DNA of 11,877 bases from Lachnospiraceae bacterium (GTDB lineage: Bacteria; Bacillota; Clostridia; Lachnospirales; Lachnospiraceae), in contig JAFUXY010000148.1 of the NCBI GenBank assembly GCA_017477005.1, positions 1-11,877 of the forward strand, written 5' to 3'. Position numbers and translations under genes: made by a program. The notes under the pieces were generated by a model. It was given only the letters and a program-made list of their open reading frames with translations. It did not search any database and was not told the origin of the DNA. Shown here in pieces: positions 3,187 through 10,318 of this stretch; within the stretch, counting starts at the first letter, position 1, and each line of letters opens with the position of its first letter.

Positions 3187-3215
3187 TTCCCATTTTTGGC
3201 AAATTTGTGTATGAT
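3187..3215 (+). promoter_or_regulatory. Putative sigma-A promoter of nrdD
   Basis: A -10 element TATGAT at 3210-3215 (5 of 6 to TATAAT) lies 17 nt after TTCCCA at 3187-3192 (4 of 6 to TTGACA). Transcription would start near 3222, placing the two NrdR boxes at about +1 to +47, a sensible position for repression. The -35 match is modest, so the exact promoter is an inference from spacing and operator position. Confidence 0.45.
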
Positions 3216-3221
3216 AGAGAA

Positions 3222-3237
3222 GCACAAGATATAGTAG
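3222..3237 (+). promoter_or_regulatory. NrdR box 1 upstream of nrdD
   Basis: GCACAAGATATAGTAG fits the known NrdR consensus (acaCwAtATaTwgtgt) and matches the second box at 12 of 16 positions. NrdR is the ATP/dATP-sensing repressor of ribonucleotide reductase genes in most bacteria. It binds pairs of such boxes placed on the same face of the DNA. The position before nrdD and the 31-bp offset to the second box support the call strongly. Confidence 0.85.
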
Positions 3238-3252
3238 AAAACATGATGAAAA

Positions 3253-3268
3253 ACACTATATATAGTAT
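3253..3268 (+). promoter_or_regulatory. NrdR box 2 upstream of nrdD
   Basis: ACACTATATATAGTAT is a near-ideal NrdR box with a palindromic core (ACTATATATAGT). Its start is 31 bp after that of box 1, about three helical turns, the arrangement typical for cooperative NrdR binding. It lies about 165 bp before the nrdD start codon. Confidence 0.88.
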
Positions 3269-3371
3269 GTGATGGAGAATTCAGTAAAATCAATGCGTGG
3301 TTGGAGTTGTATAGCTTAGATTTAAGGAATGTTTGAGAATCATCTGCGCGGATGGGTGTACAGGCAGGTGG

Positions 3372-3431: not shown

Positions 3432-5684
3432 ATGGATACAGAGACAATAGAAGTGAGAACCAATGTGATCAAGCGCAATGGCCGGGAAGTGGATTTCCAT
3501 GAGGACAAGATCATTGGCGCAATCGAAGCGGCCAATCATGAGGTCAGCGGCATCCACCAGATGAACCGCTACCAGATCCGCGCTGTGGCGGACAAGATCG
3601 CCAAACAGGTGGCGGATTATACCCATGCGGTACATGTCGAGGATATCCAGGATATGGTGGAGACGGGCATTATGGAGATGCGCTGCTATGAGGTGGCGCA
3701 GAAATATGTGCGTTATCGCTACAAGAGGGAGCTGTCCCGGAAATCCAATACGACGGACAATGGCATCCTGGCGCTGATTGACCAGTTGAATGAGGAAGTC
3801 AAGCAGGAAAATTCCAACAAGAATCCGGTGATCAATTCCACGCAGAGGGATTATATGGCGGGCGAGGTCTCAAAGGATCTGACCAAGCGCGTGCTGTTGC
3901 CGGAGGAAGTGACAAAGGCGCATGACGAGGGAATTATTCACTTCCATGACGCCGATTATTTCGCACAGAGGGAGCACAACTGCGATTTGATCAATCTCGA
4001 GGATATGCTTCAGAATGGCACGGTGATTTCGGAGGCGATGATCGAGAAACCGCACAGTTTCTTTACGGCGTGCAATGTGACGACGCAGATCGTGGCGCAG
4101 GTGGCCTCCAATCAGTATGGCGGGCAGAGCTTTTCGCTTGCGCATCTGGCGCCGTTTGTGGATGTGAGCCGCCAGAAAATCCGCCAGCAGGTGATTGAAG
4201 AGCGGACGGATTGCGGCGAGCCTTTGGACGATGAAATTATTGACAGGGTGACGGAGATGCGGCTTCGTACCGAGATCAAGAGCGGCATCCAGACGATTCA
4301 GTACCAGTTGATTACATTGATGACCTGCAACGGGCAGGCTCCGTTTGTGACGCTTTATATGTATCTCGATGAAGTGCCCGAGGGACAGCCAAGGGATGAC
4401 CTTGCAATGTGCATCGAGGAGGTCTTGAATCAGCGGATCCAGGGCGTGAAAAATGAAAAGGGCGTGTGGATTACGCCTGCGTTCCCGAAGCTGATCTATA
4501 CGCTCGATGAAGACAATATTACCGAAGGGTCCAAATATTACTATCTGACCGAGCTCGCGGCGAAATGCACGGCGAAGCGCATGGTGCCGGATTATATTTC
4601 TGCGAAGGTGATGCGTTCGCTCAAAGGGGGAGACCTCTATACCTGTATGGGCTGCCGCAGCTTCCTGACGCCGGATCGTTTCACGGATGCAGGCGTTGGG
4701 AACATCGAGCATCGGCAAAACTATCGCCCCGGCGAGCATCGGTATTATGGCCGGTTCAATCAGGGCGTGGTGACGCTCAATCTCGTAGACGTGGCCTGCA
4801 CCGCCGAGGGAGATATGGACAAGTTTTGGGGCATTTTGGATGAACGTCTCGAGCTTTGCCATCGGGCGCTCCGCTGCCGCCACGAGAGGCTGCTTGGCAC
4901 GGTGTCCGATGTGGCGCCGATCCTGTGGCAGCATGGTGCGCTTGCGCGTCTCGAGAAGGGACAGAAGATCGACCCGCTTTTGTACAATGGTTATTCGACG
5001 ATCAGTCTGGGTTATGCGGGGCTGTATGAAATGTGCCACCGGATGCTCGGCGTTTCGCATACCGATCCGATGGGCAAGGAGTTTGCCTTGAAGGTCATGC
5101 AGCGGATGAACGACAAATGCGCTGAGTGGAAGGCGGCGGAGAATATCGATTATTCGGTGTACGGCACGCCGCTCGAGTCGACTACCTACAAATTTGCAAA
5201 ATGCCTGCAGAAGCGCTTCGGGATCATCCCCGGCGTGACGGACAAGAATTATATTACCAATTCCTATCATGTGCATGTGACCGAGGAGATCGATGCGTTT
5301 GACAAGCTGTCGTTCGAGGCGGAGTTCCAAAAGCTGTCGCCGGGCGGTGCGATCAGCTATGTCGAGGTGCCGAATATGCAAAAGAACATCCCGGCGGTGC
5401 TGTCGGTGATGCGGTTTATCTACGACAATATTATGTATGCGGAGCTGAACACGAAGTCGGATTATTGCGAGATCTGTGGCTTCGACGGGGAGATTGAGAT
5501 TGTCGAGGACAAGAACAGCAAGTTGGTCTGGGAATGCCCGAACTGCGGCAACAGAGACCAAAGCAAGATGTCGGTGGCCCGCCGTACCTGCGGATATATC
5601 GGCACACAGTACTGGAATCAGGGTCGGACGCAGGAGATCAAGGATCGAGTGCTGCATACGTCAAGTTCTGTGGTCAGAAAATGA
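3432..5684 (+). CDS. nrdD: Anaerobic (class III) ribonucleoside-triphosphate reductase
   Basis: NrdD reduces ribonucleoside triphosphates to deoxy forms for DNA synthesis without oxygen, using a glycyl radical installed by the radical-SAM activase NrdG. ATG 3432 is chosen because of the strong purine ribosome site just upstream; an in-frame TTG at 3333 lacks one. The 750-residue protein, normal in length, has an ATP-cone at about 8-100 (allosteric control, starting near VIKRNGREVDF), then the ten-stranded barrel core. Visible key residues are C184 (HNCDLINLEDML), C405 and C408 (CMGCRSFL), a zinc site with C679, C682, C702 and C705, and the glycyl radical loop RRTCGYIG with Gly721 as the likely radical site. 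The gene looks intact and active. It is preceded by NrdR boxes and followed by a terminator. No nrdG lies next to it, although the end shows an ATGA overlap (5681-5684) of the kind used for coupling to a following gene. Confidence 0.97.
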   Translation: MDTETIEVRTNVIKRNGREVDFHEDKIIGAIEAANHEVSGIHQMNRYQIRAVADKIAKQVADYTHAVHVEDIQDMVETGIMEMRCYEVAQKYVRYRYKRELSRKSNTTDNGILALIDQLNEEVKQENSNKNPVINSTQRDYMAGEVSKDLTKRVLLPEEVTKAHDEGIIHFHDADYFAQREHNCDLINLEDMLQNGTVISEAMIEKPHSFFTACNVTTQIVAQVASNQYGGQSFSLAHLAPFVDVSRQKIRQQVIEERTDCGEPLDDEIIDRVTEMRLRTEIKSGIQTIQYQLITLMTCNGQAPFVTLYMYLDEVPEGQPRDDLAMCIEEVLNQRIQGVKNEKGVWITPAFPKLIYTLDEDNITEGSKYYYLTELAAKCTAKRMVPDYISAKVMRSLKGGDLYTCMGCRSFLTPDRFTDAGVGNIEHRQNYRPGEHRYYGRFNQGVVTLNLVDVACTAEGDMDKFWGILDERLELCHRALRCRHERLLGTVSDVAPILWQHGALARLEKGQKIDPLLYNGYSTISLGYAGLYEMCHRMLGVSHTDPMGKEFALKVMQRMNDKCAEWKAAENIDYSVYGTPLESTTYKFAKCLQKRFGIIPGVTDKNYITNSYHVHVTEEIDAFDKLSFEAEFQKLSPGGAISYVEVPNMQKNIPAVLSVMRFIYDNIMYAELNTKSDYCEICGFDGEIEIVEDKNSKLVWECPNCGNRDQSKMSVARRTCGYIGTQYWNQGRTQEIKDRVLHTSSSVVRK

Positions 5685-5706
5685 GAGAGAAAATGAATGC
5701 GATAGG

Positions 5707-5738
5707 ATGGCGGAAAGCGAATGGCTTTCCGCCATTTT
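5707..5738 (+). terminator. Intrinsic terminator after nrdD
   Basis: A perfect 12-bp inverted repeat, ATGGCGGAAAGC (5707-5718) and GCTTTCCGCCAT (5724-5735), encloses a 5-nt loop and is followed by TTT. The stem is GC-rich. The T-run is short but adjoins the stem's own AT end. It begins 22 nt after the nrdD stop and fits the end of a single-gene nrdD unit. Confidence 0.8.
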
Positions 5739-5792
5739 GCTATGCGTATTCGCTGTATGGGCTTGTATCCTGGGTGGAAGATAGCTTCCGTC

Positions 5793-5960
5793 TGGTAGAT
5801 TTGGTAGATTTATGCAGATTTGGTAGATTTATGCAGATTTGGTAGATTTGACAGATTTATGTAGATTTCGTAGATTTGGTAGATTTGAGTAGATTTCGTA
5901 GAATTTGTAGAATTATGTAGATTTGGTAGATTTGGGTAGATTTGACAGATTTGGTAGATT
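5793..5960 (+). repeat. Tandem array of about 18 units, 9-10 bp each (TnnnAGATT)
   Basis: Head-to-tail short units cover 168 bp. Seven are exactly TGGTAGATT (5793, 5802, 5821, 5840, 5877, 5924, 5952). The others are variants such as TATGCAGATT (5811, 5830), TGACAGATT (5849, 5943), TATGTAGATT, TCGTAGATT, TGAGTAGATT and TGGGTAGATT. A 19-bp block is exactly duplicated at 5802-5820 and 5821-5839. The array fades into degenerate units up to about 6006. Units near one helical turn would place AGATT on the same DNA face. It fills most of the 349-bp gap between nrdD and the ATPase gene; the rest is the terminator and about 55 bp with no clear feature (5739-5792). It is not CRISPR: there are no spacers and the units are too short. 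Function is unknown. Confidence 0.92.
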
Positions 5961-5971
5961 TGGATTATAAT
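5942..5971 (+). promoter_or_regulatory. Perfect sigma-A promoter at the end of the repeat array
   Basis: TTGACA at 5942-5947 and TATAAT at 5966-5971 are both perfect matches to the sigma-A consensus, separated by 18 nt. The -35 is made by the junction into a TGACAGATT variant unit. The -10 lies in the first degenerate segment after the array. Transcription would start near 5978, about 55 nt before the ATPase ATG. A further TTGACA occurs at 5848-5853 with only a weak -10 (TAGATT, 5871-5876). Confidence 0.75.
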
Positions 5972-6033
5972 GCCAGATATGGTAGACTTGACAGATCATT
6001 TTAGATACAGGATATTTGGCGGAGGGCGGAACG

Positions 6034-7188
6034 ATGTTTGTGAATCCATTTTCACCGATCTTTGGAGGCAAACCAGGCGTGTTCTTTGGACGTGACAGGA
6101 TTCTGAAGCTTTTTGATTTGGCAATGATTGATGCGGGAAGCGATGATCGTGCCTTGTTTATTACCGGGACACGCGGTTGCGGGAAAACGGCCCTTCTGGA
6201 ACAGCTTTCGATCCGGGCAGGCAAAAAAAAGAGAATGGTGATCGATTTGGGGCCGGAGAATACAGTCACACAGCTTGTGAATGAGCTTGTCGGTTTTGAT
6301 GAAATGACCAGAACCATTAGTCCGCAGGCCAATGTCAATGTGCTCGGTATAGGCGGAGGGATCAGCACGGGGGCAATTTCCAAGACCAGGCGCTTTGGCA
6401 GAGAAAATCTCCAAGCCTTGTTGCGAGAGGTCTGTTCGAAATCAAAACATGGCGTTCTTGTTACCATTGACGAGGTTCAAAAAGTGCCAATTGAAGACGT
6501 ATCCTCCATTTGCAATGCCTTTCAAATGGCATCTCGAAAAGGGTATGATATCATGCTGGCTGTTGCAGGACTTCCCTACGCTTATTCGAGCATTACACGG
6601 CATGAGGGCTGCACCTATTTGCGTCGGGCGTCGCATGAAGAGCTGGGGTTGTTCACCTGGGAGGAAACGGCCGATGCGTTTCTCAATGCCTTTTCGACGA
6701 TCAAAGGATTGACTATCAGCGATGCTTTGCTTGACAGGATCAATCAAATAAGTTTTGGACATCCATATTTGATGCAGCTTTTGGGATACCATCTGATTTT
6801 GCAGGTGAATGATCATGATCCGGGAAAGCAATATGAAGTCAAGGAGGAGGAAGTAGAGGAATCCATAAAAAACGCTTTATTCGCATATGAGCAGCGGGCA
6901 TTGAAACCTCTGCTGGAAGAGTTGCCAGACAATGAGACGAAATATTTGATAGAGATGTCGGAAAACCTGGACAGCGATCGTCTGGCCAAGACTTCCGATA
7001 TCGCTATTAGTCTGGGAGTGCCGCAGAATAAACTGAGCCGAGCGAGGGCCTATTTGATAGACCAAGGGTTCATTGCCGCGCCGGAGCACGGCAAGGTAAT
7101 GTTCTGTATTCCTTATCTTGCGGATTTTGTCAAAAAGGATGTGCAGGTGGCGAGTGTTGTGGAAGTAGCCAGGCAGCGCAAGGTATGA
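6034..7188 (+). CDS. AAA-type ATPase with C-terminal winged-helix-like domain
   Basis: ATG 6034 follows GGAGG (6021-6025) by 8 nt; an in-frame TTG at 6016 would lie before that site and is rejected. The 384-residue protein starts MFVNPFSPIFGGKPGVFFGR, the usual opening of stand-alone archaeal-type ATPases of the AAA_16/ATPase_2 kind. Walker A is GTRGCGKT (45-52) and Walker B is VLVTIDE (141-147). A Gly-rich loop LGIGGGISTG lies near 104-113 and a sensor-1-like segment LAVAGLPYAYSS near 175. Residues of about 320-375 (RLAKTSDIAISLGVPQNKLS) resemble a winged helix-turn-helix. It should bind and hydrolyse ATP and perhaps bind DNA; its substrate is unknown. Related ATPases occur in genome-maintenance and defence settings, but nothing here fixes the role. 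The upstream repeat array could be its own binding region (inference). DUF362 follows 31 nt later, probably in the same transcript. Confidence 0.85.
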   Translation: MFVNPFSPIFGGKPGVFFGRDRILKLFDLAMIDAGSDDRALFITGTRGCGKTALLEQLSIRAGKKKRMVIDLGPENTVTQLVNELVGFDEMTRTISPQANVNVLGIGGGISTGAISKTRRFGRENLQALLREVCSKSKHGVLVTIDEVQKVPIEDVSSICNAFQMASRKGYDIMLAVAGLPYAYSSITRHEGCTYLRRASHEELGLFTWEETADAFLNAFSTIKGLTISDALLDRINQISFGHPYLMQLLGYHLILQVNDHDPGKQYEVKEEEVEESIKNALFAYEQRALKPLLEELPDNETKYLIEMSENLDSDRLAKTSDIAISLGVPQNKLSRARAYLIDQGFIAAPEHGKVMFCIPYLADFVKKDVQVASVVEVARQRKV

Positions 7189-9397: not shown

Positions 9398-10318
9398 ATG
9401 ATACAGGATATTGGATCAAGCCGATTAGATATTAGTTATGTAAATCAAAAACCGAATAAACAGAATAAATCGGATACGCTGCTTGTATTTAACGCTGAAG
9501 GTCATATTTTGGTCGCATCGCAAGGCGACAGGCTTCTGTTTCCGGTTGCAGATGGCGATATGGACAACGTAGAGACCGTGTACTTGTTTTCGGTGGATGG
9601 GCATCCGTATTACCTGCTGATGTCCGGTGAAACGGAACAGGACGGCTTCGCAGAACAGGACGGGTTCACGGATCAAAACGGATTTGCGGAACAGGACGGA
9701 TTCGCAGAACAGGACGGATTCAAAGAACAGGACGGCTTTGCGTATCAGGATATCAAAAAGCTGCGAGGAACCTGCTGCAATGTGGATATGTTGGTCGTGT
9801 TCACGGCGTACCACTTGTGGCGGTGGTATATGGACAACAGGCTGTGCGGAAGATGCGGTCACAAGCTCATTCACAAGAACGATGAGAGGGCTTTGGTCTG
9901 CGAAAATTGTTCGAACATAATATTCCCTCGTATCAATCCGGCGGTGATTGTTGGTGTGATCAAGGGAGAGAGCATAATGATTACCAGATATCGCAGCGGA
10001 TATGCCCACAATGCCCTTGTCGCAGGTTTTACGGAAATCGGAGAGACGCTGGAACAGACAGTAGCCAGAGAAGTGATGGAAGAAACCGGAATCAAGGTCA
10101 AGAACATCCATTACTACAAATCCCAGCCTTGGGGAATGGCACAGGATGTTTTGATGGGCTTCTTCTGTGAAGCGGATGGGGACGGCGAAATAAAAATGGA
10201 TGAGGGAGAGCTGAAATACGCGCAGTGGGTTCCAAGGGAGAAAGTGGAGCTTCAGCCGAATGACCTTAGCCTTACCAACGAGATGATGCGGATATTCAAG
10301 GATGGTTTTGATTTGTAG
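9398..10318 (+). CDS. nudC: NudC-like NAD(+) diphosphatase (Nudix hydrolase)
   Basis: NudC-type enzymes cleave NADH/NAD+ to NMN(H) and AMP and can remove NAD caps from RNA. The 306-residue protein has a divergent N-terminal domain (1-75), a hexapeptide repeat linker (79-118), a zinc ribbon with C150, C153, C168 and C171 (CGRCG and CENC), and a Nudix domain. The Nudix box GX5EX7REUXEEXGU is complete: G210, E216, R224, E225, E228, E229 and G231. Just after it comes SQPWGMAQDVLMGF (242-255), matching the NudC-specific SQPW motif but with GMA in place of the usual PFP, so substrate preference may differ. The start ATG 9398 has only a modest purine site (TAGGGATGG, 9381-9389). The 135-nt gap before it holds a weak hairpin and no strong promoter. 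Confidence 0.88.
   Translation: MIQDIGSSRLDISYVNQKPNKQNKSDTLLVFNAEGHILVASQGDRLLFPVADGDMDNVETVYLFSVDGHPYYLLMSGETEQDGFAEQDGFTDQNGFAEQDGFAEQDGFKEQDGFAYQDIKKLRGTCCNVDMLVVFTAYHLWRWYMDNRLCGRCGHKLIHKNDERALVCENCSNIIFPRINPAVIVGVIKGESIMITRYRSGYAHNALVAGFTEIGETLEQTVAREVMEETGIKVKNIHYYKSQPWGMAQDVLMGFFCEADGDGEIKMDEGELKYAQWVPREKVELQPNDLSLTNEMMRIFKDGFDL
9632..9739 (+). repeat. 18-bp coding repeat, six copies, in the NudC linker
   Basis: Six in-frame units encode TEQDGF, AEQDGF, TDQNGF, AEQDGF, AEQDGF and KEQDGF (residues 79-114), then a partial AYQD. The core DNA is gaacaggacgg plus ttc or ttt. The units keep frame and join two folded regions, so this is a length-variable acidic linker rather than damage. 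The family normally lacks it. Slippage in units of six codons would change linker length without breaking the protein. Confidence 0.9.

Follow-up and report, generated by a model that had tools for sequence, protein, structure and literature searches.

An AAA+ ATPase family of Lachnospiraceae and the short direct-repeat arrays at its own promoter-like sites

Most members of a family of AAA+ ATPases with a predicted C-terminal winged helix, as found in Lachnospiraceae, are encoded just downstream of an array of 9-10 bp direct repeats, which commonly lies at a promoter-like site of the ATPase gene itself. The stretch of DNA analyzed here (hereafter the window), 11,877 nucleotides from a draft genome of a Lachnospiraceae bacterium (2.6 Mb, 538 contigs, 76% complete), carries one such gene with an unusually long array. 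Judging from sequence comparisons, we consider it probable that the winged helix lets the ATPase assemble on the array before its gene and that the ATPase regulates the promoter of this gene.

The repeat array and its predicted promoter

The array (5796..6005, forward strand) consists of 22 units with a YAGA core, the first at 5796 and the last at 6002, spaced 9 or 10 bp apart save for a single gap of 19 bp where one register is missing. The original prediction had described about 18 repeats at 5793..5960, with an AGATT core and a spacing close to one helical turn. The repeats and a common core are borne out, but the array runs on for ~45 bp past that end, the core is better written YAGA, and the mean register, once the missing unit is counted, is 9.36 bp, near to but slightly below one helical turn (~10.5 bp). 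Tandem Repeats Finder reports one array at 5793-5963 (period 9, 18.3 copies, 77% matches, score 183). A chain statistic, based on a 7-mer with at most one mismatch at successive spacings of 8-11 or 17-21, gives 18 in the 250 bp before the ATPase gene, as against a maximum of 4 in 40 dinucleotide shuffles of that stretch, and the two measures together confirm that a short direct-repeat array exists. The predicted exact 19-bp duplication is also present and is longer than proposed: a tandem duplication of two units (5797..5849, forward strand), it is exact over 34 nt at an offset of 19, with copies starting at 5797 and 5816. The 3′ end of the array reaches 28 bp short of the ATPase start codon (6034). 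The highest chain elsewhere in the window, over 233 scanned intervals, is 7, inside the coding repeat of a gene for a NUDIX protein (18-bp repeats encoding EQDGFA, 9633-9750).

Between nrdD and the array lies a 12-bp perfect inverted repeat (5707..5735, forward strand), found by an inverted-repeat search, which is perhaps the nrdD terminator; a terminator scan of 5650-6100 reported no terminator, and Rfam gave no match in the window at gathering score.

Within the array there is a perfect (12/12) match to the sigma-70 consensus, TTGACA-N18-TATAAT, at 5942-5971 of the forward strand, which the original prediction had not mentioned. Its -35 hexamer (5942..5947) overlaps the start of the CAGA unit at 5946, and its -10 hexamer (5966..5971) falls in the sole missing register of the array. 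Of the 22 units, 18 precede the -10 hexamer, and 16 of these also precede the -35. Such matches recur in the ATPase family: as a consensus match only, of a kind favored by AT-rich arrays, a site of at least 10/12 precedes 63 of 98 members, as against 8 of 86 other ORFs. Consensus matches of at least 9/12 are found in 76 of the 84 array-bearing members; in 66 of these 76 the -35, the -10, or both lie within the array or at most 12 bp from its far end, again as consensus matches that AT-rich arrays favor. To the extent of such matches, the array overlaps the promoter of the putative binder's own gene, the arrangement of an autoregulated operator.

The ATPase and its genomic setting

The gene downstream of the array (6034..7188, forward strand) encodes an AAA+ ATPase of 384 residues, for which Pfam, a structure model, and the neighboring genes indicate a C-terminal winged helix and no conserved partner gene. 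As originally predicted, then, the array adjoins an AAA ATPase with a winged-helix-like end: AAA_16 is matched above its cutoff (35.7 versus 32.6 bits), and the structure model (mean pLDDT 84.5) has a C-terminal winged helix. The related Pfam family ATPase_2 (PF01637) falls below its gathering score (29.6 versus 33.2 bits). In an alignment of 25 sequences, Walker A (residues 45-52; 6166..6189) has invariant G45, R47, G48, G50, K51, and T52; D146 is likewise invariant, and E147 is kept in at least 90%, so that the protein has the AAA+ core, with Walker A and B, of STAND and archaeal-type ATPases. The predicted AAA+ plus winged-helix fold resembles, on structure comparison of the model, archaeal PABY2304/SSO1545, including the C-terminal winged helix, and Orc2 of A. 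pernix; it is also the predicted domain arrangement of Orc1/Cdc6. The predicted recognition helix of the winged helix spans residues 331-343 (7024..7062), a placement resting on the model and on the correlation of unit similarity with the surrounding stretch described below.

A PADLOC defense search gave weak matches only for the ATPase (best mad8, 1.1e-4), which we do not take as membership; NCBIfam gave a weak match only, to ATPase_Sll1717 (23.1 versus a cutoff of 75), and a sequence search of solved structures found none significant (best E, 0.048). Members are often annotated merely as "ATP-binding protein," and they are present in 58 plasmid records.

The contig of the window is chromosomal in content (the end of a valyl-tRNA synthetase, NRDD). 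In a genome of the same genus (G005), nrdD is followed by a gene for a 178-residue radical-SAM-type protein (L219, 3887-4423; Pfam Fer4_12), NrdG-like by position. In the window (5684-6034) the array and the ATPase take the place of this gene after nrdD, and they may thus be an insertion there. Before nrdD, at 3215-3275, stand two sites that we take, by eye, to be NrdR-box-like. Elsewhere in the window, two TPR ORFs (643-1611, closed by a stop codon at 1609-1611, and 1729-2496) share a frame and are perhaps one interrupted gene, and the start of a TOTE conflict-system primase (AEP-TOTE, 87.3 bits) lies at the contig end (11283-11876).

Flanks of 0.7-1.5 kb around 103 ATPase loci yielded 958 frames, among which the most recurrent family occurs in 4 loci. 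The ATPase gene stands alone, as far as these flanks reach, and a two- or multigene system was rejected, since no flanking family occurs in more than 4 of the 103 loci (958 frames).

Close orthologues and relatives in the same genome

Four orthologues from other genera (L200, L201, L202, L203) are 64-71% identical to the window ATPase, whereas among the other five genomes of its genus four have homologues of at most 30% identity and one has none; this pattern suggests that the gene moves between lineages. The arrays of the close orthologues are alike in kind but not base by base, and three of the four are far shorter. The chain is 8 in L203, where the units are ACAGAATTG-like, and 4 in both L202 and L200; L201 has no chain within 250 bp but has five YAGA units at -327 to -281, with a promoter match at -285 to -257. 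Since three of the four carry short arrays, the 22 units of the window are exceptional in its own clade. In four of the five (the window, L201, L202, and L203), a YAGA unit starts exactly 4 nt after the start of TTGACA; in L200 TTGACA is present without the YAGA unit 4 nt on.

In the source genome itself, the paralogue on C408 has no array. Among its other genes matching AAA_16 (E up to 1e-3, most below the curated cutoff), none of 15 scored, out of 16 matches with C228 set aside, has an array, and the highest chain is 3; an association of arrays with AAA genes in general was rejected on these grounds.

Arrays precede the ATPase gene across the family

A profile built from 25 members gave 96 matches with E no higher than 1e-60, spread over 56 of the 397 genomes sampled from the same bacterial family; scoring was limited to five candidates per genome, and 55 further stretches were added to loci already in the set. 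An HMM yielded 133 family ORFs, or 115 after removal of identical proteins, with matches kept if they covered at least 250 model positions and started no later than position 40. Of these, 99 belong to the bacterial family, and setting aside one with only 138 bp upstream leaves 98, with start codons chosen by script.

Within 250 bp upstream, 93 of the 98 members have chains of at least 4, 84 of at least 5, 75 of at least 6, and 46 of at least 8. No chain of at least 5 occurs upstream of other ORFs (0/86), at -650 to -400 (0/93), downstream (0/94), or inside the gene (0/98), and shuffles of the same loci give 2 in 490. The co-occurrence of arrays with this ATPase, which the original prediction had put forward as one of its checks, is thus found family-wide (84 of 98 homologues as against 0 of 86 other ORFs). 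Fourteen members are without a chain of at least 5, three of them close orthologues of the window, and five are without one of at least 4.

The 75 arrays of at least 6 units have a median period of 9.71 bp (standard deviation, 0.19), a narrowness that is partly built in, because the chain statistic admits only 8-11 per unit (17-21 for two); their steps are mostly 10, then 19 and 9. The median distal end is at -110 and the median proximal end at -20 from the start codon. The arrays keep one orientation, with the forward comparison better in 2636 pairs and the reverse in 626, the pairs not being independent. Units differ between clades and also between paralogues of one genome (e.g., L277, L278, L280, and L291 of G372), with up to five copies scored per genome; TTGTGGA in L210 and AGTAAAA in L207 are two examples of such differing units.

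The similarity of array units follows the winged helix. In a Mantel test of the 84 members with a chain of at least 5, it correlates with winged-helix identity (r = 0.40, reached by 0/2000 permutations) and with identity of the AAA part (r = 0.284, also 0/2000). Controlling for the AAA part leaves a partial correlation of 0.294 for the winged helix (0/2000 permutations), and controlling for the winged helix leaves -0.004 for the AAA part. Shared ancestry contributes to the relationship, which is itself moderate, and r falls to 0.19 for pairs below 45% identity. A sliding 40-residue analysis peaks at residues 301-340 of L041 (r = 0.41), whose numbering is used for all correlation sites; this stretch corresponds to 326-365 of the window ATPase and covers the predicted recognition helix and wing. 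Of the best 20 single sites, 7 lie in the winged-helix part, which holds 55 of the 334 sites tested, and 13 elsewhere. Five of these 7 are in the recognition helix (K308, S310, V311, Y312, and R315), aligned with K333-Y340 of the window ATPase; the single best site, F191, is outside the winged-helix part.

Members outside the bacterial family

Four members from other families of the phylum have no array, with no chain of at least 5. In the first 12 members from plasmids or phages no chain exceeds 4, a length found in three of them. Twenty plasmid or phage members, mostly from Actinobacteria and some from Alphaproteobacteria, were compared over a 140-bp stretch around the start codon. Of the 20, 10 have a 6-mer in at least 4 units, as against 104 of 847 control windows, and 1 has it in at least 5, as against 26 of 847 (rank test, P = 1.5e-4), although the 20 are not independent because several are pairs of close relatives. 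The units just before the start codon include AGACTC (L245, L344), TTTCACC (L345, L346), and CTATAAAC (L238, L242), spaced 10-9-10 or 9-9-10, or 9-10-11 in L242; L350 has six GTACAC units before its start codon. By eye, the flanks of L239, a Bifidobacterium plasmid, agree with those of the viral-catalogue contig L183, whereas their arrays differ, which indicates that units change between close relatives.

Arrays away from the ATPase

TGGTAGATT does not serve as a general motif, as units differ by clade. Searches with the pattern TAGATTTN{2,3}TAGATTTN{2,3}TAGATTT matched at least 114 genome-contig stretches and 34 viral contigs. TAGATTT as a family-wide marker was rejected: among the matches listed, a clear family ATPase stands at 1 of the 148 loci, two further ATPase matches at about 2e-4 being left out of the count. 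On L183, a viral contig reached by this ATPase-blind pattern search, an array lies directly before a family ATPase (6.6e-82), 27.9% identical to that of the window. A two-unit pattern is matched in 5 of 97 other relatives, and a three-unit AGATTT pattern in 8 of 396 other genomes of the bacterial family. Several Bacteroidales contigs (L059, L074, L092, L114, L138, L148, L152, and others) carry dense 9-bp arrays with a CTAGA core and a variable remainder, and among the matches listed no clear family ATPase accompanies them. Scattered arrays with no link to the ATPase had been named as the outcome that would speak against the original prediction. TAGATTT arrays are indeed mostly unlinked, yet arrays follow the ATPase family-wide.

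In the genome of the window, the motif recurs clearly only on contig C53, where a second array (L006, 1800-1895) is 83% identical to that of the window over 86 nt (E = 2.4e-15) and is read in frame as VDSVDLVDSVDLVDLTDLD inside an 825-residue ORF with an FtsA domain. This second array is either a coding repeat that shares its origin with the first or another site at which the ATPase binds.

A reverse search, from array to gene, used a TATAA-type pattern chosen on known arrays. Of 297 genomes, 21 contained matches, at 30 array loci in all; 19 of these loci were already known and are thus circular. The other 11 are new: a family ATPase follows the array at 2 of them and is absent at the remaining 9, within ~2 kb of flank on either side (for L392, 1.4 kb on one of the two). 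With the pattern reversed as a control there were 14 matches in 10 genomes, and the search lends slight support to the link from array to ATPase. The chains at the nine ATPase-free loci are 8 (L382, L390, L392), 6 (L384, L385), and 3-5 (L383, L386, L387, L391). By Pfam, the array-like site of 4-5 units on L387 (1998-2041) precedes a YccF-family gene, and that on L383 (1983-2027), also of 4-5 units, precedes a nucleotidyltransferase gene followed by a HEPN gene. The nine may be targets in trans, orphan arrays, or chance matches; chance is possible in view of the 14 matches of the reversed control in 10 genomes.

A proposed mechanism and its alternatives

Taking these observations together, we propose that the array serves as the cognate DNA-binding site of the ATPase whose gene follows it, with the C-terminal winged helix of one subunit reading each 9-10 bp unit. 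The Orc/STAND-like AAA+ parts would then assemble side by side into a filament along consecutive units, which would cover the promoter or alter its shape. With units recurring every 9.4-9.7 bp and a DNA turn of ~10.5 bp, successive subunits would follow a slowly turning path, perhaps like that of AAA+ helical filaments. Assembly of the filament would occlude RNA polymerase and so set the level of the ATPase itself, and the ATP state or a bound signal might govern whether the filament forms or is released. Because the -35 belongs to a unit and the -10 takes the place of one, the obvious first guess is repression by occlusion; activation is possible, as 16 of the 22 window units lie upstream of the -35. 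Four elements of this proposal, namely the ATPase as binder, one subunit per unit, the filament, and repression over activation, are what we infer. Of the layouts in which a protein polymerizes on repeats that the original prediction had listed (replication origin, partition site, autoregulated operator), the general kind is supported. The operator fits best of the three, as promoter-like sites overlap the arrays and the conserved partner gene that partition would call for is missing.

More speculatively, and with rather less conviction, we suggest that these loci might form a large and so far undescribed class of single-gene, self-addressed nucleoprotein switches, in which the winged helix and a private 9.7-bp array coevolve in each paralogue, which would let one genome hold several copies insulated from one another. 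The sensor would be the filament itself, gated by ATP or a ligand, and a few other genes would be its targets in trans; candidates are the nucleotidyltransferase-HEPN pair, the YccF family, and a lipoprotein-like gene.

Arrays near other genes, such as those of the YccF family (L387) and the nucleotidyltransferase with its HEPN partner (L383), and the long ones at L382, L390, and L392, would also suit another host protein, a nucleoid or global regulator, that binds the array and has the ATPase gene as just one target. A common host regulator would not, however, yield units that differ among paralogues of one genome and track the ATPase winged helix, and no array stands before 15 other AAA_16 genes or 86 other ORFs; we consider this reading unlikely. 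Similarly improbable is that array and ATPase make up an Orc/iteron-like initiator-origin or partition module, relic or active, of a mobile element or plasmid. The predicted fold is close to archaeal Orc/Cdc6, members occur in plasmid records (58), and the distribution is patchy, with orthologues of 64-71% in other genera and none above 30% in the other genomes of the genus. Yet no neighbor is conserved in flanks of 0.7-1.5 kb, the arrays lie at promoter-like sites of the ATPase, and single genomes hold several copies (as many as 5, the limit of scoring).

The array often ends ~20 nt before the start codon (median proximal end 20, distal 110), so much of it may be transcribed in many members, and the repeats could act as RNA, in a 5′ leader that is bound by a protein or affects translation. 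We regard this as very unlikely, given that most of the 22 window units precede the promoter hexamers (18 for the -10, 16 for the -35), that the register of the units is locked to the -35 in four of five close orthologues, and that Rfam has no match in the window at gathering score. The exact 34-nt repeat at an offset of 19, the similar in-frame array in the FtsA-family gene on C53, and the short arrays in three of the four close orthologues would be expected of a neutral, functionless minisatellite grown by slippage; as the position, orientation, and unit of the array follow the ATPase across the family, this is scarcely credible. Self-binding and control of its own promoter by the ATPase remains the reading that we prefer.

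Significance and comparison with known systems

On this reading, an ATPase family found in 56 of 397 sampled genomes of the bacterial family gains a concrete predicted DNA partner, and most of its genes adjoin a predicted binding array. The 84 natural pairs of winged helix and unit offer a data set for the recognition code of Orc/STAND-type ATPases, and they bear also on how a 9.7-bp repeat phases AAA+ assembly on 10.5-bp DNA. The family also marks a possible class of intracellular switches in anaerobic bacteria. On slender grounds, we take a lone Orc/STAND-like bacterial ATPase family with private arrays that track the winged helix to be new, because among the matches listed in our literature search arrays of this sort are connected with this ATPase family in neither a title nor the opening of an abstract.

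The TAACTGA intergenic repeats of Beggiatoaceae are likewise short, direct, and placed immediately ahead of start codons; there, one heptamer occurs in 169 sets in one genome and a role in translation has been suggested; unlike here, the parts of that report available to us link them to no ATPase (PMC4679880). From the STAND ATPases PABY2304 and SSO1545 (Pfam ATPase_2), the window ATPase differs in scoring below the ATPase_2 cutoff (29.6 versus 33.2), and we know of no report of an upstream array for ATPases of that type. Orc proteins bind repeats; in contrast to archaeal Orc1/Cdc6 with their origin recognition boxes, the units here are many, 9-10 bp long, and direct, and they overlap the promoter of their own gene, with several paralogues per genome and no sign of an origin. 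An array adjoining an initiator-like gene, as in iteron plasmid replicons, is found here as well (84/98), whereas the conserved partner motor or adaptor gene that stands by the array in plasmid partition systems (ParM/ParR, TubZR, ParAB) has no counterpart in flanks of 0.7-1.5 kb (at most 4 of 103 loci). TnsC and MuB AAA+ filaments need no dedicated repeat array to bind DNA, and they work together with a transposase; by that description, the present family differs in having such an array.

Operator arrays to which the product of the neighboring gene binds are already known. In ParR/parC and in the heptads of the omega repressor, many short direct repeats about one helical turn apart lie in the promoter of the binder's own gene, and the binders are ribbon-helix-helix proteins with a partner motor gene. 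By that description, the arrays considered here likewise place short direct repeats in a predicted promoter, but the putative binder is a lone AAA+ ATPase.
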